Shown: positions 30,701 through 64,000 of the stretch, piece by piece
How the letters are laid out: each line of letters starts with the position of its first letter
How positions within the stretch are numbered: the first letter of the stretch is position 1
Assembly: GCA_963924555.1 (NCBI GenBank)
Contig: OZ004583.1
Span: 6,710,582 to 6,774,581, forward strand
Reading direction: 5' to 3'
Origin: Crambe crambe
Lineage: Eukaryota; Porifera; Demospongiae; Poecilosclerida; Crambeidae
DNA length: 64,000 nucleotides
The notes under the pieces: model-generated
Told to the model about the DNA's origin: nothing
Seen by the model: only the letters and a program-made list of their open reading frames with translations
The model's database searches: none
Made by a program: the position numbers and the translations under genes

Positions 30701-33700
30701 AACAATGGACACACCTATGTCCTTATGGGGCAGCTTATTCATATAGCTCTCGCATTATATATAACCTACATACCATATCAATGCAGAAGCTACATCCCAC
30801 CTATGTAATACATACAGTTTGTGAACTTGCAGTGGAGCCATTCTTTGCACTTGTAACAGTTTGAGCTTGTTGAGTAGAAGTAAGAGGAGAAGCTGGTTGA
30901 TAAAATTTGTATGGCTGTCGAACACCAGGACCATGCACTGGTATCTCTGTGGGAAGGGAGGGATGGAGAAAGAGATTTTACTAAGGCTATTAACATCATC
31001 ACACAAAAATCACACAAAATCTTTCTGACCGGCATTCACTCTATAACTGCTATAACTTTCTCGATTATTGACCAAATTTCAAATATCAAACACCAGCAGA
31101 GAGTGTAGATAATTAGCTCTCTCTGTTGATGCATTTTGGTTGGAATGATCAAGGTGCCAGGTGAATGCAACTTTAGTTATGACTCAGTGAGCATTAAGGT
31201 GATGACAGTTAACTGCAGTGTATTGAGAACCTGCATGTTAAATGAATAGTCCTTCAACCTGGTGTTCCTGATATGATGATCTACAAGCTTAGAATTTTAA
31301 AATCTAGACCTCTAGCAAATGGCATCAAAACATCCAAATACAGATACTCCCCAAGTGTCATTCCAAGATGTACAATATTATGCATCATGTAGCTATACAC
31401 AGTTAAAGATTTTAAGCTTATTTTGATTTAAGGAACCCATGTAGTGATCACTTACTTTTCTTAATACATTTTTTATAACAAGAATCACACACTCTTCTTT
31501 TTTTGCCTCCGAATAAGAAGGAAGTATTCGAATAAGAAGGGAGTTCAGCTTTATTGACAGAACACAACGTACAGTAACTCTGTAAAAATTAGTGTAATCA
31601 TGAACAGAGGAAGGTGAAGTAGGGATAACTTACTACAGATCTATGGTGAAAAGAAAGAGTACATAAGAACAAGGGATATGGTTTAGAATAATATTATACA
31701 AGGATAAAATCAAGTGAAATTGTAGAGTGATGCATTTGCCCAGGCTCTTATAGTCTCTATAACTCTGATCAGTTGAAGCAGTTAAGTATACAGCTATCAA
31801 GCTCAAGATCTAACTCTGAAGTCAAACATGAAAAAGTTTACAAACAAGAAGGGATGAGAGCAGCTGAAACTTATACTCAGCTAGATCTTGTGGCTAAGTC
31901 AATATAATGATCTCAACTAAATATCAATATGCCATTGGTGCAATTGACTAATCTGAAGCAATTTACTGACCATCTTATTTATTGAATTGCATATGAAATA
32001 ATCCTTCATAAGATATTGATGTTTCAGTTGAGATACATTATCATTGGGTAAGTTTCAACTGCACTCATTCTTTCTTGTTTGTAAACTTCACTTTTTATCC
32101 TACATAAATTTTTATAAAAAAGAAAAAAAGAGAGAAAGAAGTTGCTTTGCTAGGAACAGTTCTTGGGTTGATGTTCCAGCAGTTTTCAATTAAAGATCTT
32201 GTGGCTAAATGAGATAACTAACATGAAGTATAAAGTTAAAGGTAAACATGGCAGCATTATAATTATGTCAGGAAGTAGCTTGTTCTAAGATAATTATGAG
32301 GTTTAGTGTATGTATAAAGCTACAGAATAAGCAGCTACAGCAGCTGGAAAACTCCAAATTTAGTATTTTGGTGACACTATACTTTGCTGATACCCTTGAG
32401 TCTTCATGATTCTTCATTCAATAATTATAGTAGCTTTACTTCTCCATTGGTTTAAATTTGACTGTTAGAATTAGTGTGATTACTATTGTAATTTACCTTG
32501 CCACATGCATCACAGCAGTAAAGTATATTTGTAGGAAAAGAATCTTCTGATCCACACTGCTGACATTTGGATGCTTTCTCCTGGCTTGGTTTGACAGATC
32601 CAAAGTCATCATCAATTGGCTGCAAAAGAACAAACATGCTTATTTCATTCAGAGGATCCACCATGCATGACAAAGCTGTGGGTTTATAGTCTAATGATTC
32701 TTATTCCAATCTTTTAGTAGAAAATGCATGTCTATGGGAGCATTGCAGATTACATGAGAAGGCCCAAGAGAAACTTAAGTAGAAGCATAGATATAAGATG
32801 TTTACGGGATTGGAAACGGATCACGTGCTCTCGTTAGCAACTAACAACCGAGGCGCGTTGACAGCTGAATGACATAGCACTTTTGTCAAAGTTGCTGTTC
32901 TGACAAGATCCGTGAGGTAAGACTTATGCCAATGATACTATAATACACTAGGGCATAGATTTACTGTATGAAATAAATTTTAGCTCAGATTTTCAAGTTT
33001 ATTCCTACAAATACTACTGTGGTGGTTAATGGGACTGTAATCCCTCTCACGCTTGATGGAATCAATTGCTGTTGCCCATTTTCTGATCAAAAGGCATGTA
33101 AACTTTAGCTACATGGAATAGTAATGTTAGTTTTTGTATTAGCTGATGTATATTGTCTCTAGCATTTGCAAGTGGTGTTAAAACTGTAATCCCTCTCCCA
33201 AGAAATAGATTAACAATATTGCAACTGTATTAGTAATTTCTGGGAAAGGATAGAACAGTAAATGGAATTGGTGCATTTATTTTCTATACAATAGTCATCC
33301 TATGGAGATGGCAAGCTTACTATATTTCCCCCCTAATATCCATAGGGTCCACAGGACAGCTGACTGAGCCGAATTCTTGAGATGGATGGTGTCAAAATCC
33401 AACAGCCAAAAGCTGGAAGTATTGCAATAATGCTGATGAGGACGAACTGAGCAGAAACTGGCGGATAACTTTGGGGCAAAATTATCTAGCTATAATAATA
33501 ATGAATTTATGTCTAATTTTAATACCAAAAGTCATTCTGGCCTTTCTTTCAAATCAATCACATAAAATTAATGTATAATGAGTAATGATAGGTACTCATA
33601 GTTATAATTACAAGGAAAAAAGTTATGAATAATTTATAACTTCCTTCCTCAGACTCTCCAACTTACACTCTCTGACTCTTCACTTCTTCAATACCTTCTC

Positions 33701-45731: not shown

Positions 45732-46555
45732 CTACACCGGGTGTGAAAGGAAGGTCCAAGATGGCTCTATGTAGGATTTGCTAATACAAACTTCGCCACA
45801 AGCTCTCGGTAGAATCCCTTGACCAATCAGATCCTCTGAAAAGTGTACATTAAGTCTCTTAGTGGAAGATCCACTAGGACTAACCTCAGTCCCTAGCACC
45901 TATGACTGAGAGGTAAACTAATTTCTTTTATAGACTTCAGTAGTCACATTGGGTTTCAAACAAGAAAACCTCAGGAATTTACCTCATCATTAAACTTTAT
46001 CAATAATTGCATTTTTTAAAAACCACTGAAACCAAATGTATGTCAAAGTATGGTGTGTCCAACTGGATCTGATTAGATCCAAGTCATGTGACCAGCAATA
46101 AAACACTTATGACAAGCCGAACTAAACTTGCATCTTTTAATGAGACACACTCGATCTGATGATGCGATAGTGCACTTGGTTACATAATGCACTATCACAT
46201 TATCTTCATGTGCACCTTAAAGTAGCTATAGGCATAATTATAACTATTACTTATTAACTGTTTATAAGTGGCCTGTAGCTATAGTTAGCTACAATGTGCA
46301 CTATGTATTATGTAGCTAGCTCAAGATTTAAAAGTGAGCAATACACACAGCCTAGCCAGCTATTGTGTAGCTATACTATTAGCTATGCTGTTACACTGTT
46401 GTTTCTTCAGTGGAATTCATAGGAGGAGGATGATCACCTATGGAAGATATTACAGTGTGATAGCAAAATTAATATGTCAATGTGAAACAACCCTCTGCTC
46501 TGAACATAAGGGCACCTTGCACGGAGTCCATACACACTTCCACTCACACTCAGTA

Positions 46556-47034: not shown

Positions 47035-47093
47035 TCAACTGTGTATGCTCATAATTATTGGTCCATATAATGTATACGGATGATTATAACCAC
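47035..47093 (-). CDS. Gene A exon A22, last coding exon
   Basis: 59 nt, phase 1 start, giving GYNHPYTLYGPIIMSIHS then TGA. Acceptor ATATGTCAG. The AATAAA just downstream supports it. Confidence 0.65.
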
Positions 47094-50000
47094 CTGACAT
47101 ATCATATAGCAGTACTTGATTAGTGCATGTATGTGTGTGGGTTGGGCTTGCCCAATTACCTGCATGTTGTTTTTTATACTTCTCATAACAAGGATCACAG
47201 ACTTTCTCTTCCTTCTTCAAATACTCAAGATAAACTTTTTGCTTTGTTTTGCCACAGCAGTCTTCACATATGACCTGTATGAAAATAGAGACTCCTATGC
47301 AAGCTTATTATTAATAGCTACATAATAACATACCTTGCCACACGCCCTACAATGATGACGCCTAAAGGTTGCAGTGAATTCTTTACTACAGACTCGACAC
47401 ACTTTAGTGGCATCATCATCCTCCCACTCAGGCTTCACAGTTCCAAATGGAGTATCATCATCCTATACAATAAAAATTATTCTAATAGTGCTCACTTATG
47501 TAACACAATAATCTCAGGAAATATCCTCAAGTGTGTGGGAGATCTATTGAATGGCTTCTATTGGCAGTCATCTTTACTGGAGAGTGAATGATCTGAGTGG
47601 TGGTGGAAATTTTGAATGAGATCATACCCACTCACACAAGTTCATACATACCGTACAGTGGGATAATTTCGGTGGGGATAAAAATTCGGTAATTTCGGTA
47701 ATCAGTCTATCTATCAAAAATTTTTCTATCAAATTTTTTTTCCAAATAAAGCCACCGTTTAGCCACATGTACGTAGACCATAGGCGGAGGAACCAGGGGG
47801 GCCAGGGGATTTTTAGACTTATAGTTTGGCCCCCCCCCCCCCCCCCCCAGATTTCATTCGACTATTTGTCATTGTAGGAGACAATTATACATGACTGCAT
47901 GTGCAAAGTGAAACATTTTCAACTCTATTGATAATTAATATGCAAACATGAAAATCACTCATAAAGATATGACAGACAAAATTGAGGTTTACCAAGTAGC
48001 AAAAGAATTTGTTGAACTAAATGAACATAGAAAGAATTATTTATTAGAGTTACGTATACAACTTGCTTGTGTTGACTGAATTTTGACTCTTGTTTTTTAA
48101 TTAACAACTATTGTTGGGTATGCATGGTGCAATGGGGGTTTGGGGTTGGCCCCCCCCCCCCCCCCCCCCCCCCCCCAGGTAAATTTATGTTCCTCCGCCT
48201 ATGTAGACGTACTTCGCTTTTCACAGCTGCTGAATTTCCTTTTTCACTTGGCTTGCATACTATTTTTGGCCTTCATTTCTTCAGGTATAGCCCTCTTTGT
48301 GATCGTGGCGACTCCTAATTGATGGAATCTAGCTAGCTAAGAAGAAAGTGGACCGGAAGGTTTGGTAAGTTGCCTTAGTTGAATGTACGAATGTAGCACA
48401 TGCGCTAAAATAACCGTACCGTACCAAATAAAAGACTACTGTAATTCTTCATCTGTATAATTATATTGTCCATCGAAATATTTTATCTCCGAAAAAAACC
48501 CTCTGTACGGTAGTCAGTGGGACCATAATATATTCACACTGGGGTTTCATTAGCTGCACTCTCTGCAATGTCATTCCGCAAAGACATACAAGTTATGTAC
48601 AAGTCTGTACAGAGCTAAATCCTGCTCTAACTAATAAAGGACAAAATGTAGGGACCCTTCATTTATTAGTTTAGAAACCCTTAGAGCCCTGATGGCCGGT
48701 CATTTCACTGTTTGAAAAGAACTCATTATGGCTAAAACTTCAAAGTGATGCCATGGTCTTAAAAAATGTTATAATGCCTGTCCAAAGAGCACAGAAATTC
48801 ACTTATTGAAGCTATTATACATATACACCAAGATGGCCTACTGAAAAGGGTATATGATAATTTGATCATACTTTGTCACTTTTGGAATCCTTAGAAACTG
48901 GAGAATGTACTTTAATTCCTGCATATAGAATATTGTTTATCAATCATGACTCTGAAGGTAATTATTTAGCGAATAATAATTAGGCATGCATTTGATACGG
49001 CTTAATAAAAGTAGTAAATATAATATTACCTTGCTTTTTGCATTCCTCATAACAAATATCACACACCCTTTTCAATTCTTCCTTGTCGTACGGGAGATAA
49101 GCCTTATTCACAGAGCACAATGAACAGACACACTGTAAGATTGCAACAAAGTGGATAAATTAGCTGATTTTGGTGTAGTGCTTGTAGTTAGTTAGCTATT
49201 AAGTCATAGATACAGTCATGTTGATTAGCCATGCTTCATAGCTTAATCAAGTCAATGGGCTTGCTTTGCTTACTAGATATAGTCTAAACTCACCTTGCCA
49301 CATGCTTTACAGTAGCGGGGTCTGTTCCACTTAATGATGGAGTATTCTTTTTTACAAATTTCACATGCAGGAGTTTCTGGTGACTTTATAGGTTTAACTG
49401 TTTCAATTTTATCCTGCCACAAAATATTATTGGTGAAAAGTATTGCTAATGTCCACAGCAGACCATGCATGCATAACTTGACAAGTAGCTAGAATCATTA
49501 TAAGATCTAAATTTCATGCTTAAAATTCTAATGAATCATTATAAGCACATGCATGCAGAAAAGCACATACTTGTTATTATAGGTACAACAATGGGTTGCA
49601 TGAAGAGAAATGCGAAGTATCTTTTTACCATGAGTGTATCTGAGTTATGTAAGGCAGATAATGTTGTAGATACCACCTTTAGGCTTGCAGTGCTCATGAT
49701 AACCTATCTACAACTTTACCAAGTAGTATCAAAAACTTTTTTATTATCATAGGATTTTGACTCAATAGAATTCCACCAAATGCAGTGAGGCTATTTTATC
49801 ATTTGGATTGTACTTAAATAACTTCAGCAACTTGATCCTTATCAGCACTTACTCTATCAAGCTCACGCAGGATAACTGCATGAAAGATGATAAAGTAGGC
49901 AGAAGCTGCGGGACCAAGCTTCCATGAGGTATACGTATATAACATTGAGAATGGCTGAAGTTGTCGAATGTCTGTCTGACTGGTTGGGGTGGCTGGCTAA

Positions 50001-53000
50001 CTAGAAAGTAGTTGACAATTTTTCAGTGTTTTTGGATAAAAATACTGAGGAATCAGTATGGTTGGAGGCTCTGCCATGCATATGTCATTTAGCTACATTG
50101 CTGTTGCTGTAAAGTTTGATATTGAATATTTTGTTAATTATCTTCAATCACCATTGCTACATACCTATAGCTACAAAAGAGGAGATAAGTTATGTTTTGA
50201 ATTTCTATAGCTAGCTAATTAGCTACAAAGAAAAGAATGGAAACAAGTGAGCACAAAAAATTTCTTCTAAGTATAGCTATATAGGGATAGCCCAATCTAG
50301 CTGCATTACATAATACTATTCCTATCACTCCTAGCCCTCCTAATATTATAACACCCAACTTAAATCCCCCTCCAGCAACAAGTGAGCCCTTACCCGTACC
50401 CATCACCAAACTCAAAAACCACAGCAATAATTACTATTCCTACTTTACTCCTAGGCCTCCTAATTCAATAACCACACCTTATTGAAATTAAGAGGCCTAG
50501 GAGTGAAGTATAGGAATAGCAGTTATTGCTGTGGTTCTAGAGTTTGGATTATAAAACACTAGAGTAATGTGGGTGTAAATTAGAAGCTAAGGGGCACTAA
50601 ATCATGACTGTATAGCCGAGTAGTTAAATTATTGCAAGTAGCTAAATACTCTAGTTACATGCAATAATATGGAATACCATAATTATTGCAAAAGATCGAG
50701 CATTGATATCAAACTAACATACTTCTTCAGTCCCAGACTCTTCAGTTACAGTGTCAGCAACTATTTTGATACCTGCATGGAATGGTAGCTACTCAGTTCT
50801 TAATTGTTACACAGAGCAGTTAGCCAGCTACTACCTTTCTTGCAAATATCATAACAGAGATGACAGACCCTCTGTGCTGCATTCAAGTTATATGGAAGGT
50901 AGGCCTTATTTTGAGAGCATGATGAGCAAACACACTATGTGAATAATTATGTAAGCACATAATAATATTATTATGGTTAGCAATAATAATGGACTATAGT
51001 TCCAATCTTTATATATCTGAATGACCAATAGCATCCAAAGATAATATTGCCTATAACTGAAATTTGAGCTTCTTTGGACATGCAATTTTGACCTCAATCT
51101 CTCTGATCATCAGAAGACTTCTCTCATTGTCCCATCTTTGAGAAGTCGCTCTTTCATTACAAAACTGATGACTGAGATCCAGATGCATAATGGCTGCTGA
51201 CAATAGCTAGGAAACTACATGAGATCCAGACTAATGGCAAGGCCAAGCATAACATGACAGTACAACTAGCAAGTAAAATTGCCATTAGAAAAATCTCATG
51301 AATAAGGGTGCCAATACACCCTACCCATGGTTGCTATGGAAACTAACTTTAGAGACAGATATTCATACTAAAAAATAGTATTACACATGCCTGCCTCATC
51401 ACCAACTTTCATAGAGAGATTAAAAACAGGACTGTTACCTTGCCACATGCCCGGCAGTGATGACGTTTGAACTTTCTAGTTGGATTTTTCTGACAGACCT
51501 CACACACTTCAGTATCTGGATTCCATGTAGGTTTCTCAGTTGCGAATTTTTTTACAATAATCTACAATGAAAATTAATGCAATCTATAGGGAATATAATA
51601 TAGGCACATGTATTACTGTGGTGTGCCAAATTACAACAATTTCATTCTAGGTGGGCATTATACAAACATGGAGGAATAGATGAACCAACACTTATTATTA
51701 AGTAGAGTGTTATAGTCAATGATAGGAACAGCCATTCCTATCTTGCTGATTATGAACGGTATAGATTACCAAGTTTAACACCTTCCTCATGAATCTCCCC
51801 TTACATGGAAATAGTAAAAACTCCACAAGAGACATTATAGTCTGGTTTGTGCAGTAGCTATAGCTATTGACGGTTGATTCGTAGATTCTTTATCGATATA
51901 GTTGGGACCAGCAGAGCTTGCTCTTATCCTTCTTTTGACAGTTTTGTTAGTATGAACTCAGTCTCAGATGTAATCATGTGAATAAGGCTATGCTTGTCTA
52001 GACCTCGGTTGCAGCTCCATTTTATGTATTAAAATCAGACACTGTTGATGACAACAGGCAGAGTCACTTAGTTAGCTAGCTAAGGTGAGATTTTTATAGT
52101 ATATGTAACACCCTAAAGATTAGCCCGTAGACAATGTCCTCCCCCCACCAATGACTATATAGTTGATGTTGGGTGTGTGCAGTAGGTTTGGATCTGCATG
52201 TTATTATGCTCAATTCAATGCATGGCCATTAGTGCGTGGGCTTGATTTACTCTCTCAATCAGCTGCTAGCTATTGATACTGCATGCCTTTACAGGCTCAA
52301 GAATAGAAACTGTATATCAGTGCATGCCATACTGAATGAAAGATTCTGCCTATAACTCACTTCTTGATGGGGTTGCTCAGTCTCCCCATCTTGATTGTCA
52401 GGTGTGATGATGGTACCAGTACTGCTATCTATTAGATGGGAATGGTCTTCCTGCATAATCAAATAGAGCCAACACAATATGCCAGCTATTTTCTTTGTAT
52501 TTATAGATTAAGGATAAAGTGAATGGAATTTGCTTGCAGCAGCTATATAAGCTGGAGTAAGAATTTATCCCGTCACATGCATGCATGCAGTTTAGAATGA
52601 ATGACTAATAAATGCTCCTAAAGTTTTTAGATTGTGTGAAGCTCTGATAGATGATAATCTATTAAACACACCTAATTACATACCAACTAGAAAAAAAAAA
52701 AACGTAGCTAATGTAATCTAAAATAATAATCAAAGCGCGTTTCTTCCCTGAGTACCTCAGCGCTTCGCTGCCATCACGGATCTGTAAAGCAACTTCGTCC
52801 TTCTTCATGCCATTAACTTAGAGCGCCTAACTCTACTTTGTTTTGGACTGTCAGAAATTGTACTACGGTCTCCATGTTGACGATCTTTACCATACAATTT
52901 ACATGAGCAAGCAGAGTTCTTTCTGCTGTAGCGGCATACTTCAACCTTAATTGCAGACAGAGACGAGATTCTGCTAAGCACTGCACTAGCAGTATGTATT

Positions 53001-56000
53001 AGCAGGCATTATGTGGTTCAGGTGAGTATCTAGTCAGCTTTACTATCATCTGTAATTGTACCACTGTCTCCATGTTGACGTACTCCTGTAGCAGCAAGCC
53101 TTGATTGCAGACAGAGATGTTAGCTCTAACTATCACCCATATTAATAGCTGACAAAAAGCAGCTAGGTCATAATCAGCTGTTTATTGCCTTGACAGCTTG
53201 ACACATCTGTAAGGCCACACCAAGTCAATTATTAGTTTCTGGTCTTTCCCCTTTTAAATTAACATGCGGGCGGGCGGTAATTGCGACTATCATGGCTGCT
53301 GCAAGTTTGCAATCTTCCACGGTAGAAGGGTAGAATGTTCAGATATAACAGTTACGTTGATCAAAGGCATGGCTGGTGGAGCTAACTAGTACAACATTTC
53401 ACAATAATTATTTCACACAACACGCATGAGGTCCTCTGTTCTTCTACTTCTTTTGCTACATATCATTATAGTCCTCAAATTCCCGCAGCGCGATTAGCAG
53501 GCGGGCGGGGGACCAGAAACTAATAATTGACTTGGTGTGGCCTAATGTAAAAAAAAGCATACGTGAAGTAAACTCTTATTGCCTGTCTTTTCTACTTGGT
53601 ATGTGGTCAACTCTTGAAAAAAAAAAGAAAAAAAAGAAAAAAGAACGAATAAATTAGCTAGGACACATCAACTTAATTACTATGGTGGCTGTTTCGGGCC
53701 ATTTCCTTCTGCCGTTTTTCCATTCTAATATGGTATTTCCACTTCAATTCCAACCTACTTCCACCTCTATTCCACTCTAATGTGATATTTCCACTTCAAT
53801 TCCAATCTACTTCTACCCCTATTCCACTCAAATACAATATTTCCACTTCAATTCCAACCTGATTCCGAGCCACTTCCACTTCAATTTCATGCAACATGTA
53901 GCACATTATGTGCATGCATGCATCTTATTGATATCATGTGACATTACACATGCGACACATATCATCACACATGAAATTGCAACATGGATTCTGATTTGAA
54001 GATCAGGCTTGTCAAGCTATAGCTACTTTGAAGCTGGGTATTCTTATGAACTGATTTTAAGATTTTTAGCTTGTCTCCATAGAATATTTTTGTCACTGAG
54101 AACCTTGAAACTACTATACTACGTTGAGAAGAAGAGGCTGTGGTAGTGATATCAGACTAGTGATTGATTCTGTTGAGGTTTGTTAGCTGTAATCTGTAAT
54201 CATAATTAACCTTTTTTCCCCATGTAGTCTGAACTTTCTCAATCTAGTTCTCTCCTTGGTTACCATGTTATGCATCTCAGATTGCTACAAAGATATGGGC
54301 TTTGAGTATCAAGGATTTATATTGATGTAGCTTTAGAATTGTTTCCTTTGGTGCAAAAATAATAGGGAGAAAGTTACTGTCATTCATGGATCCCAAAGGT
54401 GTGGCATTGGGGAAACAATAGGAGATTGTATTCATCCAAGGGAAATAGCCTCCTATAACAGAATATAGTGCATAATATCATACTCCTCTTGTATATAATA
54501 AAGGGCCCGAATGCCCAAACTATTGCTGGCATATCGATGGCAATGATAAATTGGATTTGGAATCCATGGTGGCATCGATGGGCGAGTATCGAATCATAAA
54601 ATATAATGTTCCAACTTTATCTAACAGCTATTCATGAACGATTTGTGGCTAGAAATTTCTCCTACCATTGCAGGATAGCTACTATATTTAAAAGCTGTAC
54701 AAAGATATGGTAAATTGCTCTAATCAATGTCACCTATTTTTCATAGGATGTCCTAAAATACTACACTAATGTTATCCACAGGTGCGTACTTATTGCATAG
54801 CTGTGATTAGCTGTGCACTATTAATTCGGATTGTTTGAAGTATGCGAGTATGCATTTATGAATGTTATCCAAGCTGATCTAGACAGGACAAAAAGGATGT
54901 GGAATGGACCAACGTAGTTCATAAAATGGAATTCCTGACGAGTTGTAGCTATTACTTACATGAAGAGAGAGGTAAAGCTATACATGAAATTTCCTCCTTT
55001 TTTTGCTATTAGCTAACCTCCTTCATTCAGCTAGGTTATGAAGATTCACAATTGTGTAATAACGCTGATCTGCAGTTATGTAAGTTAGTGAAATGCCACA
55101 GTCCAATCATCAAAATTTATAAAGTTTTGGTAGAGGAGGAAAACCTTATAATACCTATCCATCAACCTTAGAAGAAGCATTATCACTGTATATTTAATTC
55201 ACCACATTAGCATGATATGAGAAGTACAGAACTGTTGAAATGTTTAATGAATGATAGGGAAAAAAATTAGTTACCAAATTAGAACAATAGAGCCTTTAAA
55301 AGGGATGGTGCTGTAGCCCTTCTTTTGGCAGGAACAAAACACATGCTCGTGATCTTATTGGGGAGATGGGAAAACTTCCCCCTGCTACCTTCAAAATGAT
55401 GGTGCTTTACACAAAGATGCGCACAGGCATGACTGTTGGAGATTAGAAGTAGGTTGGAAATGAAGTGGAAATACCTTGAATAGAGTGGAAGTGGGTTGGA
55501 ATTGAAGTGGAAATACCACATTAGAGTAGAATAGAGGTGGAAGTTGGTCGGAATTGAAGTGGAAATACCGCATTAGAGTGGAATAGAGGTGGAAGTAGGT
55601 TGGAATTGAAGTGGAAATACCATATTAGAATGGAAAAACGGTGGAAGGAAATGGCCCGAAACAGCCACCATAATATACTTATTTATCATCCCCTCCTTCT
55701 CCTAATTTTTGCTCTTCTGGATTTTTAATTTTATTTCTACTGAGCATGCACATGGTGTGCTCTATTTGAAAATCAGATGTGATTTTCAGTGTGATATCTG
55801 ATATTAGTTTTAGAATAGTAGCTGCACACCTTATTCTTTGAATAAGGTGTGCAACTACTATTTTGAACTTCAGCATTTTAGTTTTCATGACTTTTTGGTT
55901 AAACTTCAGCGTATTTTTACTTGTTTGCTTTTTTGTAGGCTCGTGAGCCAGCCCACTTATTTTTTTCATGGGTTTATGGGATAAGATCATGTATAAATGT

Positions 56001-59000
56001 TACCATGGAAACCAATAAAAAATAAACTCTCCTATTTTTGGAAAAATTGGGATGATAAACAAGTAATTAATTCGATGTGGCAGCATTTTAATAGCTAAAA
56101 AAAAAAATACAATATTGTTGCACATAATAATTGTATTGACCACAGCACTCAATGAATTGCCACTAGAAAAAGATGAATAAAAACCCTGATTACCGTGGAT
56201 TGGGAAAATTATTATCGTTAAAAATATATTTCTTCATAATTATTAATTTTTGGATTAATGAAAATTATTACAGACTACTCTATCAGATTGGTACCTAGCA
56301 ACCTCTTAAACTTATAAACTAGCTGATTTTTTTTGTTATTGTTGTTGTACAGGTTTAATCCATGCTAGCCAGGTGCAGCTGCTCGAATTTTTCAAGAAGC
56401 TCGAACAGAAAATGAGCAAGTCAATATTCACTCTATCAAAAGGAAGGACTAAATAAGCAGCTGAGGATGAAGGATATGCTCCAGGTGCACAGGGGCGGAT
56501 GATAAGAAATTAATGACTGCTGCTTTTTTAATGGGGGACTTTCTTCTAGTGCAGCTCAGGTAATTTACCCCATGTTATCATCCTCAGTTTGTTTTCCTAT
56601 CAGGATGGCATGTGACATATTCTCCCAAGCACCCCTCCTCTCTTCAAAAAAGCAAGAGATATTTCCTTCTGTTTTTCACTGTAGAGTTACTTTCACATAA
56701 TTATTTCCAACAGCTGAAATTAATTTCACAATAACTCCAAACACAGTTCTCTCTCCATTGTCTCTATTTGTTTTTAATTGTCTCTCTTTTGTTAAATTAA
56801 TTATAAACATTAAAGTAGTACCCTAGCAGTCAAATCGCCAGCGTATTCCATTTGTAGCGTGCTAATTATGTGTCTTGAAACTTTCATTTGTCTGATCCAG
56901 ATACGACATGTACCTACTGGTTTTTTCTTTGTTTTGTGGATCTAAAAGATGTTCATAGCTACTGTATGTGGAAAAACTGAATCTATCTAGCATTTACCTA
57001 GCAACTTGATGATTAAGTGTTACCTTTAAGTTTTTTTTTGCGTCATAATAATTATGTTAGTGATACGATTATATTGAGGATAGTTTTCCTAGATTGGCAT
57101 TGGTAGAATGGTTCTGCTGAGTTTCAGGCACTAAACTTTTCTTTACAGTGAATGGCCCAGTAGTTTATCATGTTTATTATGGTAGAATGATTTTACAAGA
57201 TGCTGTACAAGATATTGGACAGTCAGTTTGAATGATCATTTTTGCTTCTTCACCATCATCATCATCACTAAGTACGTATGTCATAATGCATAATGCCTTC
57301 AACGTCTCTTTCATACAGATTGTGGTCACTCCGAAACAGATCAGTGTTATCATCCTCATCCTCGCCAACTACAACAGTATGCGAGTTGGAGACCAGATCC
57401 AGGAGCCATGGCAACAGATGTCTTTACCTTAGATTGGACACAGTTCCAGGGGTATACCAACCCACCTTGGAACCTGATACACAGGTCAGACACCAGAAAG
57501 CCCAATTTTTTCCAGATGTAAGAAGTTTAGTTAAGCCTGTACTACATAGAGAGTGCTACCGCACTCTCTGACTAGTGAATGGAATAAGTTTTGCCTCACT
57601 AAATGTTCAATTTGCTCTCGGGAAGCAATACTTGCATTTCTGTAAACGTTTCCATCACACCTTTCTATGCTACAGATAACTTTATTGGGCTGTTTCGGCT
57701 TCCAGCATGGATGGAAAGTGCATTTCTGGAAGTTTGCTTGTAGCATGCATGGCATATGCACACTTATATATCTGTTCCATGTCATAAATGCTTTACCACT
57801 GCAGGATCCATTTCCAGTGTGTATACCCTTTTTACATACAAATAGCAAGGGCTGCATTTACCTTCATGAGCATGTGATTTAGCTGCCATCTCTGTAACAA
57901 AGGTACCATTCTAAAGAGTGGAAGAGGAAGGAGGAGAAGTATAATTATTTTCATTCTATTTAAACAGGGCTTGTTTATAATGAATGTGAACATGTGACAC
58001 ACGAGATTTTTGTATGTTTATAAACTACGTATAGTGTGAAGCGATAACTTCTTTACAGGAAATGGCCCACTGAACAAGAAAAGAATCTTGCAACCACACA
58101 CACAGTGATAACTTCACTTTGGTTAATGCCACATTTATCAAACTTACACCACCATACGTTCTTTGCAATGAATATTGCATGTACAATTTTACTTTGTAGA
58201 GATAATGAGTATTTAAAAAAACGGAAGTATGCGGAAACTAGTATACCCAGCGGTGTTGCGTGCAGATGGATTTGTATTACACGTATAGACATCCGGTTAT
58301 ATTGGCAATTTGACTGCTAGATCAGTGAACTCTCAATAATTATGTACATATTAAAATGTGGTGTCTGGGCTGCACTGGTAGAGGCTGTGTGTACTTAGTC
58401 TCGTGTGGGCCAGACTCTCACACACATAAGAGAGAGTCTGGTCAAATTCCTATACCAACTTTGTTTCTAGAAATCCATGAAAATCGTGGATAGCATGCGC
58501 AGAACATGTAGGTACGTCATCAAATTTGAGTAACTATACTAGAACAGTCACTAGCTAGCTCTTCAAGCTTACTTCTCTAAAGTTCTTTCCAAATCTGACT
58601 GTAATTTCAAATTTTAAGCAGTGCGCATGTGTAGTAGTCGGTTTACGGATGACGCCTGATGATTAATTTTTGCAAGATTCCATAAAACCGCAGTACATAC
58701 ATACTGCAAATTTCACTTCCGTTTGAACATTGAATTTTTGCGTATGACCTTTGACCCTCATTACCACTGTATAAAATTGCAATACCAACCATGCGCAGTA
58801 GCCCACGCAATGTTCAAACGCAAGTGAAATCTGCAGTACATATCTCAATCTTCCATTTTCACCAATTAGTGTGGAGCTTCGCTCGCTCGCCAATAAATAT
58901 TTTCCAGATCTTACTCAAGTTACTGACTGCAGAAGACTTACTGACTGCAGGAGATTCCAAACTTAGTCAATGATTAAAAATGGAACTGAAACAAAAATCT

Positions 59001-62000
59001 AATTTTTTAGAGATCAGCCAATCTAAAAAAGATTAGAACAATAGCACTATGCATGATCTAAGTGTGAATCATAAATGCATGAGATAATAATTAACATAAT
59101 TATGTCCCTGTCCCACAGTCTTCTCTGATTCGGGTGCTGTCAGGAGGTTTTCTGACACAAGCAGATAATTGCTGCCTCATTTATCTAGCTGCATGCAATC
59201 GATAGCGATTTTCATGAAGGAGCTTACTGCTTCTACTTGTTTGACTTTAGAATTGAATAGCCAAGCCTACCCCCACCTTCTTGAATAGCTTCAAGAAATC
59301 TTGAGGCATCTCACTATTTTGACTGAGTTATGACGTATCTGTGACACTATTTTTTATGTGTGGCGAATGCTGAATTACTCAGCAGAACAAAGTCAGTATG
59401 GGAATTTGACCAGACTCTCTTTTCTGCGTGTGAGAGTCTGGCCCAAGCGAGACTAGTGTGAACCATGAGCCTAGTTTAATTGTATATAAGGTTAGGACAT
59501 CCTTTCAATAATGTGCAAGGCCTCAAATGCCGTGCAACAGACACATGGTAAGAATTCTCAGATTTACAAGAGAGATTTGGAATTGTCACATGCACTCACT
59601 TATCAACATGTAAAGAGGGCTTTAATAATCTTCTAAATACCCCATGCAGGTGTACACACTAGGTGTCCTGATTATAAGGACCTTGGTGTATTAACCGAGC
59701 CATTAATTACCATTGGCTTGTACAATTAATTTGGTGGCATTTTGCATATGTAGCTGCATGGCTGGAACTGCCACTTACATAAAATCTTATTGAACCATAA
59801 ATGAGCTGGAGTTCTAATAACATCATGTACACCCATTGCTTCCTCACTCGCTGACAAATGTTGACATTCACCTAGTTATCCTGAACTGTTTCTCCATCTC
59901 TATGCTCTTGCAGATGGCTTGGAAAGTGGAAAATAGAAAGCTAATTCCTAGTTTCAGCTGGTCTTCAAAATTTAGATGTCTGTTTTAGTTAGTTGGGTTT
60001 TAGTTTTTCGATATATACCTATTTTCCAATATTTAGGTCCACTCAAAGTGTACCATGTTTGAGAAACCGCACAAAAAAAAATGGATGGCTGTGTGTAATG
60101 TTCATGAACAAGAAAGCCTACCCCTCCTATAATTTCAATAACTAGTTCACTCCCCACGAGAGAGCACTTTGAACAATACACATAACCATCCCTACACTGT
60201 GTACTTGCCTATTTTATTTAGAATAAATATTTTTAACCTTTACTTGAGCACTTGGTCAATAATAATAATTAAAGCTTGTTTTTCACATACAGTTTGAGAC
60301 TTTGTAGTGGAACCATTCTTAGCATTCATAACAGTCTGAGCCTGTCGAGATGGAGCAGAAGTAACTGGAGCTGGTTTGGGAAAACTAGTTCGTAGTGAAG
60401 GATGATGTACTTTTATACCTGTGTAGGAAAATATGATATCTCAACCTACTACCCCATAGTATTAATAGCCACTAATAGTTGAGCTAATATGGTAGCTACT
60501 CAATTAAGTCTTCCTTTATATTTTATTATTAACAATGAGCCTGAAGGACAAGTGTAGCTAGTGATCACTTACCTTCTTTGATGCATTTTTTGTAACAAGT
60601 ATCACACACTTTTTGCTCCATCTTTGAATCATATGGAAGGTTTGCTTTATTGGCAGTGCAGGTTGAACAGAAACACTGTTTAAATAGTAATAAGATTGAT
60701 GACAGTCTTGTTTCCTTAAGGTTACAGTGATGTACTTCATTGAATTTCTTAATAATGATGATTGTGCCATGCAAAATAAAATCATGAAGTTAAGATATAG
60801 CTCTTCGATCTGGTCCACAAGGGGTCTGGGGATAGCCACCTTAACTTCAATTTCTGGACATTTTATATTCGAATTGGAGATGGCTAAATCACTTATTTTT
60901 TCAGTTCTAAGAACAGCTACCACTCGACTCTTTTTGCTCCAATTGTAATTTTGTAATTTTTGAGCTACGTAAGTAGACTTGTACGTAGGTGTAGGCTTAT
61001 CCACATACGTAAGTGCTTATAGTTTAAAGTATGTAGCTGCCTGTCTGGAACCACCAGGTACATAACAAAAGGAGTTAAAGCACAAACTGAGTTCAGGAGC
61101 CTATCAGGACTGCTTGCTCGCTGGCAAATGTTGGAAACCAACCATGTACACTGCTGACTTGACATTACCATATAAGGATATTCATGATTCATGCTGACCA
61201 ATCATATTCATTTATAGACTTGATAAAAAAAAATCTAATCTGTCATGTAGTTTTCAGTTCCTACCTGAATCAGTCTAGATCATAGCTGCTAGCTACCACC
61301 CGCGTTCGTGAGTACAACACAAAATTAACAAGGAAACACTATTCTTAATAATAGCTAAGCATGCATCAAGTAACTATTCTATTGATTTGGCCTAACGAAT
61401 GAATTAGTGTAGTGTATACATAGTTCACCTTGCCACATGCACCACAGTAGTAAGGTTGATTCCAGTTGATTTTAGAGAATTCTGATCCACAATGCTGACA
61501 TTTAGATGCTTCTTCCTGCCTAGGTTTGACATGTCCAAATTTTGGCTATAAAAGAAAGTGTGATTAATGTATGTTCTTTTTTTAGAAGAAATTTTTTTCC
61601 GCTCACTTGTGCTTATATGTTTATCACTGCATGGAAAATCATGGTTGTATGGTGAAGTATCCACCAGATTTGTGCATATAGCTAGGGCAGACTGAATTTT
61701 GGCTCATGATGATGATGGTGGCCTTGTCACACACACAACTTCAAGATTATAGCTAGCTACCAAAAAATTCTATAAACCTATCCTGGCATGTGAACAAATA
61801 CAGATGTTGGAATCTGTAACATTAGCAGCTCAAAATCTTGGCTATTGATAACACTGTATAAATCCATTGGCAAAAAACTGTAAGTTTGGTTTAGAAAAAA
61901 GTAAGTGCTAAGTGTGAAGGTATGCCTTATATAAAGCTTTGATGCAGTAATATTTTTTCTACTATGTCAATAGAACAAACATGATAGTTAATTTCATTCA

Positions 62001-64000
62001 GTGGTTTCAATATTGATAATATTATTCTTCCATTTCGCCTCTTTCTCCCCCAAGTTCAACCAGAAAAATATCTACTGAAGGATTAACTCTGCATGCTGGC
62101 AATTGCAAAATAATAATAATTATCATTATCATACATACTTCACATGCAGATTTATGTAACTTCTCCTTTTTACAGATTGCCACAAGAATAGCAGCAATAG
62201 CAATGATAAATAGTAGAAGAGAGATGAAGGAGGGGATAAATGATGCTATGATGAGGTTATCTCTGTTGGACTGCCATTTTGAATCACATGTGTCTGTGAA
62301 TAAAAAGTTTGAACATTCACAGCATGCATAGCATAATTATTTCATTTCAATTTTTGCTATTATCCTTACTTATCTGTGGTCCCACTACAACACCAACTGC
62401 AATCCATAAAGAAACAGATACCAACCACAAGAAAACAGCTACTAGCAAGAGGACAAGTGATGCAATCCACACACGTTTAATGCCTGAATAATAATAATAC
62501 CAAAAAAATGATTAGCTTATAGGTCTGGAAATCGTGACTTACTTGCAGTGTTACATTTTATAAAAAGTGGTATCAACACAATTACAATGATAATGCCTAA
62601 TATCAGAAAAATCACGCCCACAATCAAAAGTCCAATGTTAGTATCAGTCAGATGAACGGCAACTATAAGGAAGAAATCATTAAATAGGAATACAAGTCAA
62701 CTATTATGAACTTTACCTTCTCCAGTCATGAAACTTCTTCTCGACTGGTAGAAAGTGGAGTTCACCCTCACTTCAAAAAGAAAATAGTACTGAGTGAAAG
62801 CCTCCATCAGTGGCAGGGGAGAGGGTGAGTTCAAGACCACATTAAGGTGGTTATCTAAGTTGGAGGAATCCTGGCTGTATTGGACAACACAAGGTCCTTC
62901 AGCCAGGATAGAGGAGCAGAGAAGAGTAGTGATACAGTCTTCAAATGTTAGTCTAGGACTTAAAACTGCTGATTGAAGTGAGCTTTCTGTGATAAAATAA
63001 TGAGCTTGACTCAATATCATTATGCAGCTTAGTGTTGTACCTATAGCAGCTGATTCTGCCACATTAGATCGTCCAAAAGTATTAACAGCATAGACAGAGA
63101 CAAGAGAGCTTTGAGTTGAGGAGGAAAAGTTAGTAAAGGAGGTGGCACAGAGATTATTATTGCAGCTATCAGAGCTAACCACCCTCTCTTCCAATCTCCC
63201 CCCTCTGCTATCATTCAGGAATATTGAGTAATTGAGAGAGTTGCCAAAGGAACAAACATCAGATATGGACAAACGCTGAAGGAATTATGAAAATAGAAGT
63301 GATTGTATGTAGCTACATAGAATGATTGTAATAGCTACTTACCTTTACTTGCCGCCAAGTCAATGTCAACTGACTTAATGAATTTTCATCGTTATATGTA
63401 GGAAATATTATAATCTCAGGAATCAATGGAACTAAAAAAAACAACAACAAAAAACAGTGAAACAGTACAATGAATCAATAATTACCTTGTGGGTGGACTA
63501 TGATAGTACTCCTTGGTCCTTCTTGGTTCCCACAGTTTATGGCACTGATATTGAAAGAGTAACGTGTCCCCAGGACCAGTCCAGAGCAGCTATAATCCTC
63601 ACTGGGACTCACCAGTTGCTCACTGGGACAGGAGGAGGGGGTGGGGCTCAGTACTACACAATAGTTTGTCACGTTATTCCCAGAGGAAAAGGAGTCAAAA
63701 GATACTATTACACCTCCAGGAGAGACAACAAGGGAACACTCCAGAAAAGGATATGTGGGAGGGGCTGTACAACAAGGGAACATGCAATGTAAGGGGGAGA
63801 AGCTATAAAGATAATTATTAATATGCATGCATACATCTTTATCATCACCACACCCTTCACACACACGAAAAGGTTCCCACCAAGTAAATAATGGTTCCTG
63901 ACCTATGCATAAATACAGTAACCCTTATTCCACTTTTTGCATGAAGGGTGTGTCATATGTGAGTGTGGGAACATTAAAATTAAGTTTAGTACCAATGATA
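47035..64000 (-). CDS. Gene A: FN3 ectodomain, three TM segments, four FYVE fingers (5' partial)
   Basis: Proposed join of 22 exons, A1 (cut by the window edge) to A22, about 2600 nt, all GT-AG and phase-consistent. The order of parts is the end of the Ig exon, two FN3-like domains, a juxtamembrane domain, three membrane segments, FYVE1 (NQPYYCGACG, atypical), linker, PDNQDG cassette, FYVE2 (KRHHCRACG with WNPD), FYVE3 (RPRYCKACG, atypical), FYVE4 (RRHHCRACG with WEDD), short C-terminus. FYVE domains bind PI3P on endosomes, and two fingers here keep the WxxD and RHHC residues needed. The protein is inferred to be a receptor whose tail engages endosomal membranes. A tandem paralogue, gene B, lies 2.5 kb downstream. 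Coding across the 7.8-kb intron 52451-60290 is inferred from phase. Confidence 0.75.
47160..47274 (-). CDS. Gene A exon A21, FYVE4 second half
   Basis: 115 nt, phase 0 to 1. VICEDCCGKTKQKVYLEY gives Cys pair 3 and EEKVCDPCYEKYKK gives Cys pair 4, as in canonical FYVE domains. Confidence 0.9.
47334..47462 (-). CDS. Gene A exon A20, FYVE4 first half (canonical)
   Basis: 43 codons, phase 0/0, donor GTATGTTA. KPEWEDDDATKVCRVCSKEF carries the WxxD motif and Cys pair 1; FRRHHCRACGK carries the PI3P-binding basic motif and Cys pair 2. Confidence 0.92.
47651..48510. mobile_element. TA-site MITE, second copy, with nested insertion
   Basis: Starts CCGTACAGTGGG after TA and ends CCTCTGTACGG before TA. 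It matches the reverse of 23284-23693 outside a nested element at 47779-48203. Confidence 0.75.
47779..48203. mobile_element. Nested TIR element with 5-bp TSD
   Basis: CATAGGCGGAGGAAC and GTTCCTCCGCCTATG ends, TAGAC on both sides (47774-47778, 48204-48208). It contains two poly-C/G stretches that are themselves roughly inverted. Inserted into the MITE above after that MITE landed in the gene A intron. Confidence 0.75.
48872..48918 (-). CDS. Gene A exon A19, short linker
   Basis: 47 nt, phase 1 to 0, giving GIKVHSPVSKDSKSDK. Homologous to the start of linker A12 (GIKVHHPS) and to A16 (GIKIVADT). Confidence 0.75.
49030..49132 (-). CDS. Gene A exon A18, FYVE3 second half
   Basis: 103 nt, phase 0 to 1. 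CVCSLCSVNKAYLPYD and KRVCDICYEECKKQ give Cys pairs 3 and 4. Confidence 0.9.
49294..49413 (-). CDS. Gene A exon A17, FYVE3 first half (atypical)
   Basis: 40 codons, phase 0/0. PACEICKKEYS is Cys pair 1 and NRPRYCKACGK is Cys pair 2. The RRHHCR motif is reduced to RPRYCK and WxxD is missing. Confidence 0.9.
50245..50540. repeat. CAAGTGAG hairpin element (degenerate)
   Basis: CAAGTGAGCACAAAAAATTT, then TATAGGGATAGCCC and paired CCTAGGCCTCCTAATT/AATTAAGAGGCCTAGG near the centre. Relative of 25805-26050. Confidence 0.6.
50723..50772 (-). CDS. Gene A exon A16, short linker
   Basis: 50 nt, phase 1 to 0, giving GIKIVADTVTEESGTEE between FYVE2 and FYVE3. Confidence 0.75.
50835..50934 (-). CDS. Gene A exon A15, FYVE2 second half
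   Basis: 100 nt, phase 0 to 1. CVCSSCSQNKAYLPYN and QRVCHLCYDICKK give Cys pairs 3 and 4. Confidence 0.9.
51439..51561 (-). CDS. Gene A exon A14, FYVE2 first half (canonical)
   Basis: 41 codons, phase 0/0. PTWNPDTEVCEVCQ has WxxD and Cys pair 1; FKRHHCRACGK has the PI3P-binding motif and Cys pair 2. Confidence 0.92.
51562..52360. other. Gene A intron, partly shared with gene B intron
   Basis: 52.08-52.28 kb matches 26.33-26.58 kb in gene B (TTAGCTAAGGTGAGATT-like start, GTGGGCTTGATTT). No gene. Confidence 0.5.
52361..52450 (-). CDS. Gene A exon A13, PDNQDG tail cassette
   Basis: 30 codons, phase 0/0, acceptor TTATGCAG and donor GTGAGTT. Product has LIDSSTGTIITPDNQDGETE. Homologous to B15 and B18. 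Confidence 0.8.
52740..53640 (+). repeat. Dispersed repeat R2, second copy, interrupted
   Basis: Matches 15087-15760 from GAGTACCTCAGCGCTTCGCT to the A-rich tail, but contains an internal duplication near 53040-53110 and the Harbinger-like insertion at 53213-53542. Confidence 0.65.
53213..53542. mobile_element. MITE with TAA target duplication (PIF/Harbinger-like)
   Basis: Ends GGCCACACCAAGTCAATTAT and complement, flanked by TAA at 53210-53212 and 53543-53545. The R2 copy at about 15631 shows the uninterrupted site CATCTGTAATGTAAA, confirming the 3-bp duplication. 330 bp, non-coding. Confidence 0.85.
53681..55672. mobile_element. Long-TIR element, 1992 bp, with TIR subrepeats
   Basis: TATGGTGGCTGTTTCGGGCC at the left and complement at the right. 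Inverted regions of about 200 bp each hold several about 50-bp subrepeats (ATTTCCACTTCAATTCCAA). No transposase frame seen in the middle. Sits in the large gene A intron. Confidence 0.75.
55673..57329. other. Gene A intron, nothing recognised
   Basis: AT-rich. A short inverted pair GTAGCTGCACACCTTATTC/GAATAAGGTGTGCAACTAC lies at 55818-55858. Minus-strand frame 55679-55990 is low-complexity and not supported. Confidence 0.4.
57330..57572 (+). mobile_element. Fragment of a DIRS-type retroelement fossil, ending at a CTCTGA hairpin
   Basis: A short broken remnant. SWRPDPGA and TQFQGYTNPPWNLIHR resemble the conserved block downstream of reverse transcriptase in DIRS/Ngaro-type retroelements. It is followed at 57543-57571 by the AGAGAGTGCTACCGCACTCT CTGA terminus seen in the Helitron-like elements. 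Age old; extent uncertain. Confidence 0.4.
57573..58395. other. Gene A intron, uncertain ORF
   Basis: Minus-strand frame 57531-57857 is Cys-rich (CTFHPCWKPKQPNKVICSIE) and could be a remnant of a coding exon, but no splice sites or family were recognised. Confidence 0.25.
58396..59455. mobile_element. TIR element, TAGTCTSG family
   Basis: Ends TAGTCTCGTGTGGGCCAGAC and GTCTGGCCCAAGCGAGACTA, with inner GAGAGTCTGG fold. Flanks GTGTGTACT and GTGTGAACC agree at 7 of 9 positions. About 1060 bp; contains a decayed piece of the CTTCGCTCGCTCGCCAA repeat. Confidence 0.65.
59456..60290. other. Gene A intron with a hairpin-element end
   Basis: Near 60185-60245 ATCCCTACACTGTG leads to AATATTTTTAACCTTTACTTG, a right end of the CAAGTRA type. 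No gene. Confidence 0.4.
60291..60418 (-). CDS. Gene A exon A12, post-FYVE linker
   Basis: 128 nt, phase 1 to 0. Starts GIKVHHPSLRTSFPK and ends TVMNAKNGSTTKSQT. Pro/Ser/Thr-rich. Aligns with B14. Confidence 0.85.
60573..60675 (-). CDS. Gene A exon A11, FYVE1 second half
   Basis: 103 nt, phase 0 to 1, donor GTAAGT. CFCSTCTANKANLPYD and EQKVCDTCYKKCIKE give Cys pairs 3 and 4. Confidence 0.9.
60676..61428. other. Gene A intron between FYVE1 halves
   Basis: A 753-bp intron containing remnants resembling the GCAGCGAGC family (TTGCTCGCTGGCAAATGTTG near 61111). No separate gene. Confidence 0.4.
61429..61545 (-). CDS. Gene A exon A10, FYVE1 first half (atypical)
   Basis: 39 codons, phase 0/0. EASKCQHCGSEFSKINW gives Cys pair 1 and NQPYYCGACGK Cys pair 2. 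The basic RHHC motif is absent. It joins directly to the third membrane exon, so the finger sits close to the membrane. Confidence 0.9.
61546..62138. other. Gene A intron with hairpin-element right end
   Basis: TTTTTTTAGAAGAAATTTTT, CCGCTCACTTG near 61580-61609 is a CAAGTGAG-type end. Nothing else recognised. Confidence 0.4.
62139..62293 (-). CDS. Gene A exon A9, third membrane segment
   Basis: 155 nt, phase 1 to 0. NTCDSKWQSNRDN then FIPSFISLLLFIIAIAAILV then CKKEKLHKSACE. Basic residues after the helix indicate the cytoplasmic side. Confidence 0.88.
62370..62483 (-). CDS. Gene A exon A8, second membrane segment
   Basis: 114 nt, phase 1/1. SIKRVW then IASLVLLLVAVFLWLVSVSL then GVVVGPQI. 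Confidence 0.88.
62543..62662 (-). CDS. Gene A exon A7, first membrane segment
   Basis: 120 nt, phase 1/1. HLTDTNIGLLIVGVIFLILG continuing hydrophobic to FIKCNTAS. Confidence 0.88.
62717..62986 (-). CDS. Gene A exon A6, juxtamembrane ectodomain
   Basis: 270 nt, phase 1/1. LTFEDCITTLLCSSILAEG and VVQYSQDSSNLDNHLN, then FEVRVNSTFYQSRR. The 54-nt intron to A5 has no stop and is in frame. Confidence 0.87.
63041..63275 (-). CDS. Gene A exon A5, FN3-like domain 2, second part
   Basis: 235 nt, phase 0 to 1. RLSISDVCSFGNSLNYSIFL and SSLVSVYAVNTFGRSN show the FN3 pattern. Confidence 0.88.
63343..63431 (-). CDS. Gene A exon A4, FN3-like domain 2, first part
   Basis: 89 nt, phase 1 to 0. PLIPEIIIFPTYNDENSLSQ then LTLTWRQVK. 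Confidence 0.87.
63486..63764 (-). CDS. Gene A exon A3, FN3-like domain 1
   Basis: 279 nt, phase 1/1. APPTYPFLECSLVVSPGGVI and LGTRYSFNISAINCGNQEGP. One codon longer than B4. Confidence 0.9.
63849..63897 (-). CDS. Gene A exon A2, short linker exon (proposed)
   Basis: 49 nt giving EPLFTWWEPFRVCEGC. Needed to match phases and conserved with gene B (43733-43781). Donor GTGATG is weak. Confidence 0.5.
63993..64000 (-). CDS. Gene A exon A1, 3' end of Ig-like exon (cut by window)
   Basis: Only the last 8 coding bases (TATCATTG) before donor GTACTAAA are in the window. They are identical to the end of gene B exon B2, so the Ig-like domain of gene A lies just outside. Confidence 0.6.

Follow-up and report, generated by a model that had tools for sequence, protein, structure and literature searches.

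A sponge gene predicted to join a receptor-like ectodomain and three membrane helices to a tail of four FYVE fingers

Whether one gene can encode a receptor-like ectodomain, three membrane helices, and a tail of four FYVE zinc fingers, and what such a tail would do, is the question raised by a locus in the window analyzed here, a stretch of 64,000 nucleotides that forms part of contig C5 of a sponge genome (143.14 Mb in 119 contigs). The window was joined with its neighborhood into C5:6680001-6870000, the stretch on which the array searches were run. U5 denotes the array unit that holds the FYVE-tailed receptor gene, and U1 to U9 and U0 denote the neighboring tandem units; positions without a contig name are those of the window. 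The locus is best described as a real, unusual gene: a receptor of the Ig/FN3 kind with a FYVE tail, situated in a large sponge receptor complex.

Gene model, ectodomain, and membrane helices

The U5 receptor gene runs on the minus strand from an ATG at 64493 to a TAA at 46391. Its exons were located by homology between neighboring units, followed by splice-site inspection. The model comprises 21 exons encoding 1001 residues, with GT-AG at all introns, no internal stop, and every junction in phase (an agreement that is partly by construction, as the splice sites were chosen by hand from consensus and homology). A preliminary description had proposed a splice-consistent model extending from 64000 to 47035. 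The single open frame bears out the model, and the extent has to be corrected: the ATG, read from the parent contig, lies 493 bases outside the window, as do exon 1 and most of exon 2, and the gene ends 644 bases further than had been given. The ectodomain and membrane exons are mostly of phase 1, and the finger module repeats its own phases (first half 0-0, second half 0-1, linker 1-0). In order, the protein consists of a signal-peptide-like start, an Ig-like and FN3-type ectodomain, three helices, four FYVE fingers, and a C-terminal ETTV.

The signal-peptide-like exon (64493-64424, minus strand like all exons below) lies beyond the window end and was judged by eye; no Kyte-Doolittle window above 1.6 falls on it. 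It is followed by the Ig-like exon (64340-63993, of which 63993..64000 is in the window), which is conserved in U3, U6, U7, and U8. Next comes an FN3 exon of phase 1-1 (FN3a, 63486..63764), then the first exon of a second FN3-type domain (63343..63431) and an exon with the remainder of that domain and a membrane-proximal domain (62717..63275), the last two assigned from the splice model and paralogs.

Of the Ig/FN3 ectodomain proposed in the preliminary description, the FN3 part is borderline in U5 and clear in two relatives. FN3a of U5 matches Pfam fn3 (PF00041) at 3.9e-5 with 24.2 bits, just below the cut-off of 25; four array paralogs score 21.0 to 24.9 bits against the same cut-off, and the corresponding exons of two relatives, L027 and L028, exceed it at 30.9 and 32 bits. 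For the ectodomain exons after FN3a, an IFNGR1_D2 match was obtained in three of six members (best 6.3e-4) and none for U5 itself, so the membrane-proximal part is, at best, weakly FN3- or cytokine-receptor-like. The Ig part was not recovered at the Pfam or PDB level: no member reached the Pfam thresholds for an Ig domain (one of the 10 matched Ig_3, at 0.051), the best match in a PDB profile search with the Ig-like exon was only 0.084, and alignment-free AlphaFold models of two ectodomain exons were of low confidence, with mean pLDDT values of 38.1 and 48.3, and gave no support for an Ig fold. The distal-domain exon has a C...W...C pattern that is invariant in 10 of 10 members, and it is on this Cys/Trp/Cys pattern only that the domain is called Ig-like here.

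The three helices are encoded by separate exons, assigned from the splice model and paralogs: helix 1 at 62543..62662, helix 2 at 62370..62483, and helix 3 at 62139..62293, with a phase-0 end at GTATGT. The three hydrophobic segments noticed earlier were recovered in 19-residue Kyte-Doolittle windows above 1.6, at residues 449-491, 487-527, and 538-572; one extra single window, from residue 79, falls inside the Ig-like domain. Positively charged residues lie in the loop between helices 1 and 2 and again behind helix 3, consistent with a topology in which the N terminus would be outside and the C terminus cytosolic. Pfam matches of the membrane region to MARVEL, Strabismus, and similar families (0.027-0.26) were taken as mere hydrophobicity and set aside.

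FYVE fingers and the PI3P signature

The tail begins with FYVE-type finger A, whose first half (61429..61545) is without the basic patch; its second half (60573..60675) and a linker exon (60291..60418, from the splice model and paralogs) follow. Another linker exon, of phase 0-0 (52361..52450, from the splice model, with a partial match in U6), precedes finger C, which has WNPD and KRHHCRACG in its first half (51439..51561) and RVC in its second (50835..50934) and is followed by a linker at 50723..50772. FYVE-type finger D has a first half without the basic patch (49294..49413), a second half (49030..49132) with 84-89% identical copies at C5:7868078, 7643322, 6685701, and 6673037, and a linker at 48872..48918; the linkers after C and D derive from the splice model. 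Finger E has WEDD and RRHHCRACG in its first half (47334..47462), and its second half (47160..47274) is identical in protein to that of U6 over 37 codons. The terminal exon (46391..46437, splice model) ends ...DHPPPMNSTEETTV (ETTV), and its U6 counterpart ends GTTV; we take these C termini to be possible class I PDZ ligands.

A paired-Cys scan of C5:6680001-6870000 picked out 16 first halves resembling FYVE; every one is on the minus strand, and four belong to the U5 gene. Profiles built from finger halves returned 19 first and 21 second halves in the array, weak matches set aside. These profiles and Pfam identify the finger halves of U5. Pfam FYVE (PF01363) matches the full U5 protein at 6.3e-47 in four stretches, and each joined finger passes the cut-off of 27.8 bits: A at 4e-11 (43.3 bits), C at 3.2e-13 (50 bits), D at 2e-11 (44.3 bits), and E at 2e-19 (69.9 bits). 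The four FYVE fingers of the preliminary description are thereby confirmed. That description had also named a lack of FYVE hits among the exon products as a possible refutation; when single exons were searched, seven of the eight halves matched FYVE at E < 0.02, the first halves of C and E exceeded the cut-off, and the first half of A gave no FYVE match. The nearest PDB structure to finger E is endofin (3t7l, 1.3e-16). Across the array, an intact GT directly follows the C-x-K end in 18 of 19 first halves (the exception is C5:6702186), AG stands immediately before 20 of the 21 second halves listed, and all six B-type second halves listed run into a stop without a donor.

The four fingers differ at the positions WxxD, R/K-R-HHCRxCG, and RVC, which we take to be the PI3P signature. 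Finger C has all three elements, and finger E has WxxD and R/K-R-HHCRxCG, with KVC in place of RVC. In fingers A and D the zinc ligands are conserved, and neither WxxD nor the basic patch is present. An audit of 18 fingers or halves (17 of the 19 array first halves plus L027, leaving out U3 A'' and the remnant at C5:6702186) found both WxxD and the basic patch in 4, namely, U5 C, U5 E, U4 C, and U6 E; the other 14 are without the signature. Fingers C and E are thus probable PI3P binders, and A and D are FYVE-like fingers, so that the idea of a receptor carrying its own PI3P-binding fingers would apply to C and E at most and fails for A and D.

These differences bear on an alternative in which the fingers serve as zinc scaffolds for protein partners instead of lipid readers, the canonical few being leftovers. 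Only U4 C and U6 E are canonical among the others audited, which makes PI3P binding unlikely as the general job of these tails; fingers of the A, D, B, and L027 types have neither WxxD nor the basic patch, and no canonical finger was found in U1, U2, U3, U7, or L027. Against a role as leftovers, finger C keeps every signature position and finger E all save the K for R in RVC; the first half of C shares 85% identity with that of U4 C, and the first half of E shares 84% with that of U6 E. We regard a purely scaffolding role of the fingers as somewhat unlikely.

Continuity of the gene and its place in a 1.5-Mb complex

If receptor and fingers form one gene, splicing would have to lead from helix 3 into the tail. 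Helix 3 was located in seven array units (U1 to U7), and in every one its reading frame leads to an in-frame, phase-0 GTAT; a GT in frame says little when taken by itself, and the seven units are mutual duplicates, not independent cases. Each of the seven also has a downstream finger exon on that strand, preceded by a phase-0 AG, the distance from the helix-3 start to the finger being 498-1018 bp in six units and 3,983 bp in U6. L027, which is more distantly related and located 0.2 Mb away, has an intron of ~190 bp from helix 3 to its finger, phase 0 to 0, and L028 has the same order of open frames, as a compact one-finger gene. The succession of fingers behind helix 3 is repeated as well: U1 and U3 both have A', A'', and a B second half, and U7 has A, D, and a B second half. 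Apart from repeats, the units resemble one another at the DNA level mostly within the exons of the tail; over the ectodomain, the resemblance extends through the short introns too. The same order recurring in tandem units, with tail similarity clinging to exons, is more than chance would provide, and the stop right after B-type fingers and the separate terminal exon after E in U5 and U6 indicate that the fingers form gene ends.

The one-gene model is weakest across the 7.8 kb that separate the linker behind finger A (60291) from the one ahead of finger C (52450), an interval that contains repeats. An alternative with two genes would divide the locus here, into a three-pass receptor with finger A at most and a soluble protein with C, D, and E, with a promoter between 60.3 and 52.5 kb. 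The gap with its repeats favors this division; yet an AG and a GT flank the linker before C, and both of its ends are in phase 0, like those of an inner exon, and a scan of finger-like and paralog-conserved frames in the gap revealed no terminal or start exon. A stop codon stands directly after the helix-3 donor in three of the seven units (U2, U4, and U7), so that an unspliced form would have a short tail, and FYVE proteins are usually soluble; set against this are the fingers after helix 3 in U1, U3, and U7 and the compact one-finger genes of L027 and L028. We therefore consider two genes unlikely. Exon anatomy, phases, and paralogs give good support to reading the locus as one receptor gene: receptor and finger A very probably belong to one gene, receptor and all four fingers probably do, and U5 is likely expressed as one transcript.

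U5 is one unit of a tandem array, which itself lies within a complex of 1.5 Mb on C5. Its Ig-like exon has 103 matches in the genome: 100 are crowded, on both strands, into C5 from 6.64 to 8.15 Mb, and 3 are on C9. The membrane-proximal exon gives a similar picture at 150 places or more (150 of 188 candidates scored); these are counts of exon matches, not of genes, as one gene can yield two matches. The complex may comprise perhaps a hundred genes, with ectodomain and membrane part in common and differing tails, which would make the FYVE tail one of several swappable outputs. A helix-2-like match was also seen at C14:1064765. Within the window, genome search placed the Ig-like exon of paralog U6 at 43865..44197 (minus strand), and the finger profiles placed its finger A' at 31454..32601 (minus strand; first half 32601-32497, second half 31579-31454). 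Near-identical tandem units of ~1.5 kb, with minus-strand frames, occupy approximately 4800-11400, in the gap between U6 fingers A' and E.

Relatives outside the array were read as open frames without splice models (L023 to L026, L028, and L029), and U0, U8, U9, and additional units were assessed mostly by the locations of search matches, with parts of the U0 and U8 sequence read. By eye, L023 (8.10 Mb) and L024 (7.65 Mb) have three helices and then short tails with NxxY motifs, which speaks against a FYVE tail in all relatives. In L026 (C9:2722001-2728000), also by eye, frames of the FN3 type and of the membrane part come first, then an I-set-like Ig frame and a tyrosine phosphatase, the last also a Pfam match at C9:2726565-2726795; it is apparently a relative with a phosphatase tail. 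Phosphatase matches cluster on C9, C12, and C13. Phosphatase tails within the C5 complex were considered and set aside, no C5 place being among the matches listed (of 183, the weakest being outside the list).

Finger halves also occur on C5 outside the array, at 6.96, 6.98, 7.64, 7.85, 7.87, and 8.02 Mb; no receptor was seen adjoining the one at 8.02 Mb. The copies of the finger D second half at 7.64 Mb (0.9 Mb away) and 7.87 Mb (1.1 Mb away) match it at 86% and 87% identity, and the one at 6.67 Mb matches it at 84%. At C5:6700300-6702400 (L010), type A and B finger halves are present with no ectodomain seen nearby and a first half without a donor, probably a remnant. Further observations from the same reading include a long transposase-like frame between receptor genes in L023 (by eye; minus-strand frame 6563-7633 in reverse-complement numbering) and, on C15 at 0.87-0.88 Mb, three silicatein-like genes (L032, L033, and L034) with identical motif peptides, in which Ser replaces the catalytic Cys of the cathepsin motif (QCGASYAF), a silicatein-like replacement; these genes point to a siliceous sponge.

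Parts appear to have moved between genes of the complex. U1 and U3 (C5:6846611-6856252 and C5:6819501-6828942) are recent duplicates that, from FN3a onward, share 97% DNA identity over 2.0 kb and 96% over 7.6 kb, whereas their Ig-like exons share 38% protein identity, the similarity stopping at the FN3a exon border. For the Ig-like exon of U5, identity amounts to 83% with a copy at 7.02 Mb, 86% over 73 residues with a stop-bearing copy at 7.06 Mb, and only 36-42% with those of U1, U2, and U4, although the stems are closely alike. This discordance implies that the outermost domain was exchanged between genes or captured at duplication, and the outermost Ig-like domain is the likely binding face.

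Selection was gauged by dN/dS, either pooled against paralogs (matches of >60% identity, without stops, outside U5; unit bounds here and in the DNA-similarity comparison were drawn by hand) or over all pairs. Pooled values were 0.41-0.52 for the FN3-type and helix exons and 0.18-0.55 for the second halves of A, C, and D. For first halves, in small samples, they were 1.37 (A), 1.85 (D), 1.11 (E), and 0.47 (C); the values above 1 could reflect relaxed constraint. Over all pairs, FN3a (0.41) and the membrane-proximal exon (0.56), with bootstraps above 1 in 0.2% and 0.6%, show purifying selection. The corresponding value for helix 1 (0.74, 16% of bootstraps above 1) is unreliable, with 39-codon exons stretched to 60 columns. 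Positive selection on the distal Ig-like exon was considered and found not significant (all pairs within the Ig group of U5 0.79, 18% of bootstraps above 1; pooled against U5 alone 1.03; 0.36 for all pairs of the other Ig group).

Damage among neighbors (the first half at C5:6702186 without its donor, a finger A second half not found in U2, a stop in one U7 exon match), together with the high dN/dS of first-half finger exons in small samples, raises the possibility that U5 is a pseudogene or was misassembled from repetitive sequence. With U5 intact across 1001 codons and its FN3a and membrane-proximal exons under purifying selection, we consider this very improbable.

Proposed function and relation to known systems

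The explanation that we favor, with moderate confidence, is one gene for a three-pass surface receptor whose four-FYVE tail would engage PI3P. Upon ligand binding, the receptor would be taken up by endocytosis or phagocytosis. As PI3P arises on the receptor's own compartment, fingers C and E, placed in one tail, would bind it with avidity; single FYVE domains have low affinity, a setting that two canonical fingers in one tail would suit. Such binding could hold and cluster the receptor on its own PI3P membrane or tie its compartment to neighboring PI3P endosomes. Fingers A and D, with zinc ligands and no basic patch, would more likely hold partners or dimerise, and the degenerate fingers could act as scaffolds. 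Surface location, PI3P binding, and a sorting role are thus inferred from sequence, and it is a reasonable inference that the receptor would sense or drive its own endosomal sorting.

The preliminary description knew of no established animal receptor family with this order, and a search of one open library, at the level of listings and abstracts, agrees with it: among entries on FYVE together with sponge, choanoflagellate, FN3, or Ig receptors, no receptor with this order appeared. The nearest soluble counterparts are SARA/endofin (ZFYVE9/ZFYVE16), EEA1, and HRS, endosomal proteins that usually have one FYVE domain and no membrane helix. All four U5 fingers share their zinc ligands, C and E share the PI3P signature, and endofin is the best PDB match of finger E; these proteins differ from U5 in being soluble and without a membrane helix. 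Receptors normally meet soluble FYVE proteins upon reaching endosomes. In U5 the reader domain is seemingly built into the receptor, and the link between uptake and signaling would be a property of one molecule.

Protrudin (ZFYVE27) is not known to have an Ig/FN3 ectodomain. In a survey of human proteins that combine membrane helices with lipid-reading domains, FYVE occurs in one such protein only, protrudin, which is an ER protein. It resembles the U5 protein in having membrane helices and a FYVE domain in one chain and differs from it in residing in the ER, whereas U5 has a receptor-like ectodomain and four fingers. U5 places about 425 residues with FN3-type domains ahead of helix 1, unlike protrudin, which has no extracellular domain and has its FYVE domain after N-terminal helices.

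Receptor tyrosine kinases and phosphatases, the Ig/FN3 cell-surface receptors of animals, are single-pass proteins. Their ectodomain has a probable counterpart in the Ig-like, FN3-type ectodomain of U5, which L026 on C9 pairs with a phosphatase frame; U5 differs in its three helices and in having a FYVE tail in place of an enzyme. A Pfam search of the full U5 protein, with matches up to an E value of 1, returned FYVE, fn3, and two weak membrane-region families and no kinase or phosphatase domain.

Sponges distinguish self from non-self and host dense microbial communities, and the receptors involved are poorly known. The 1.5-Mb complex may tentatively be read as a sponge self/non-self or microbe-recognition locus in which a three-pass stem is common, the Ig-like exon and tails are swapped, and the FYVE tail would report uptake. 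On this reading, which we consider rather unlikely, the tail would engage only once the receptor's own compartment makes PI3P, recognition would be coupled to the fate of the phagosome or endosome and not to surface signaling alone, and the receptor class would be new to description. A review describes the candidate allorecognition proteins of sponges, cnidarians, and ascidians as not conserved between these groups and notes ITIM and ITAM-type motifs on the Botryllus and Hydractinia candidates, and a preprint on Podocoryna reports 22 putative allorecognition genes in one complex. The Hydractinia/Podocoryna Alr complex and Botryllus fuhc resemble the U5 complex as clusters of much-duplicated, receptor-like genes. 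They differ in that their receptors bear ITIM/ITAM-type motifs where the U5 receptor bears FYVE fingers, and the U5 complex is known here from the genes of a single assembly. With its exchangeable ectodomain and tail modules, the complex would add to these systems a concrete candidate set for recognition in sponges.
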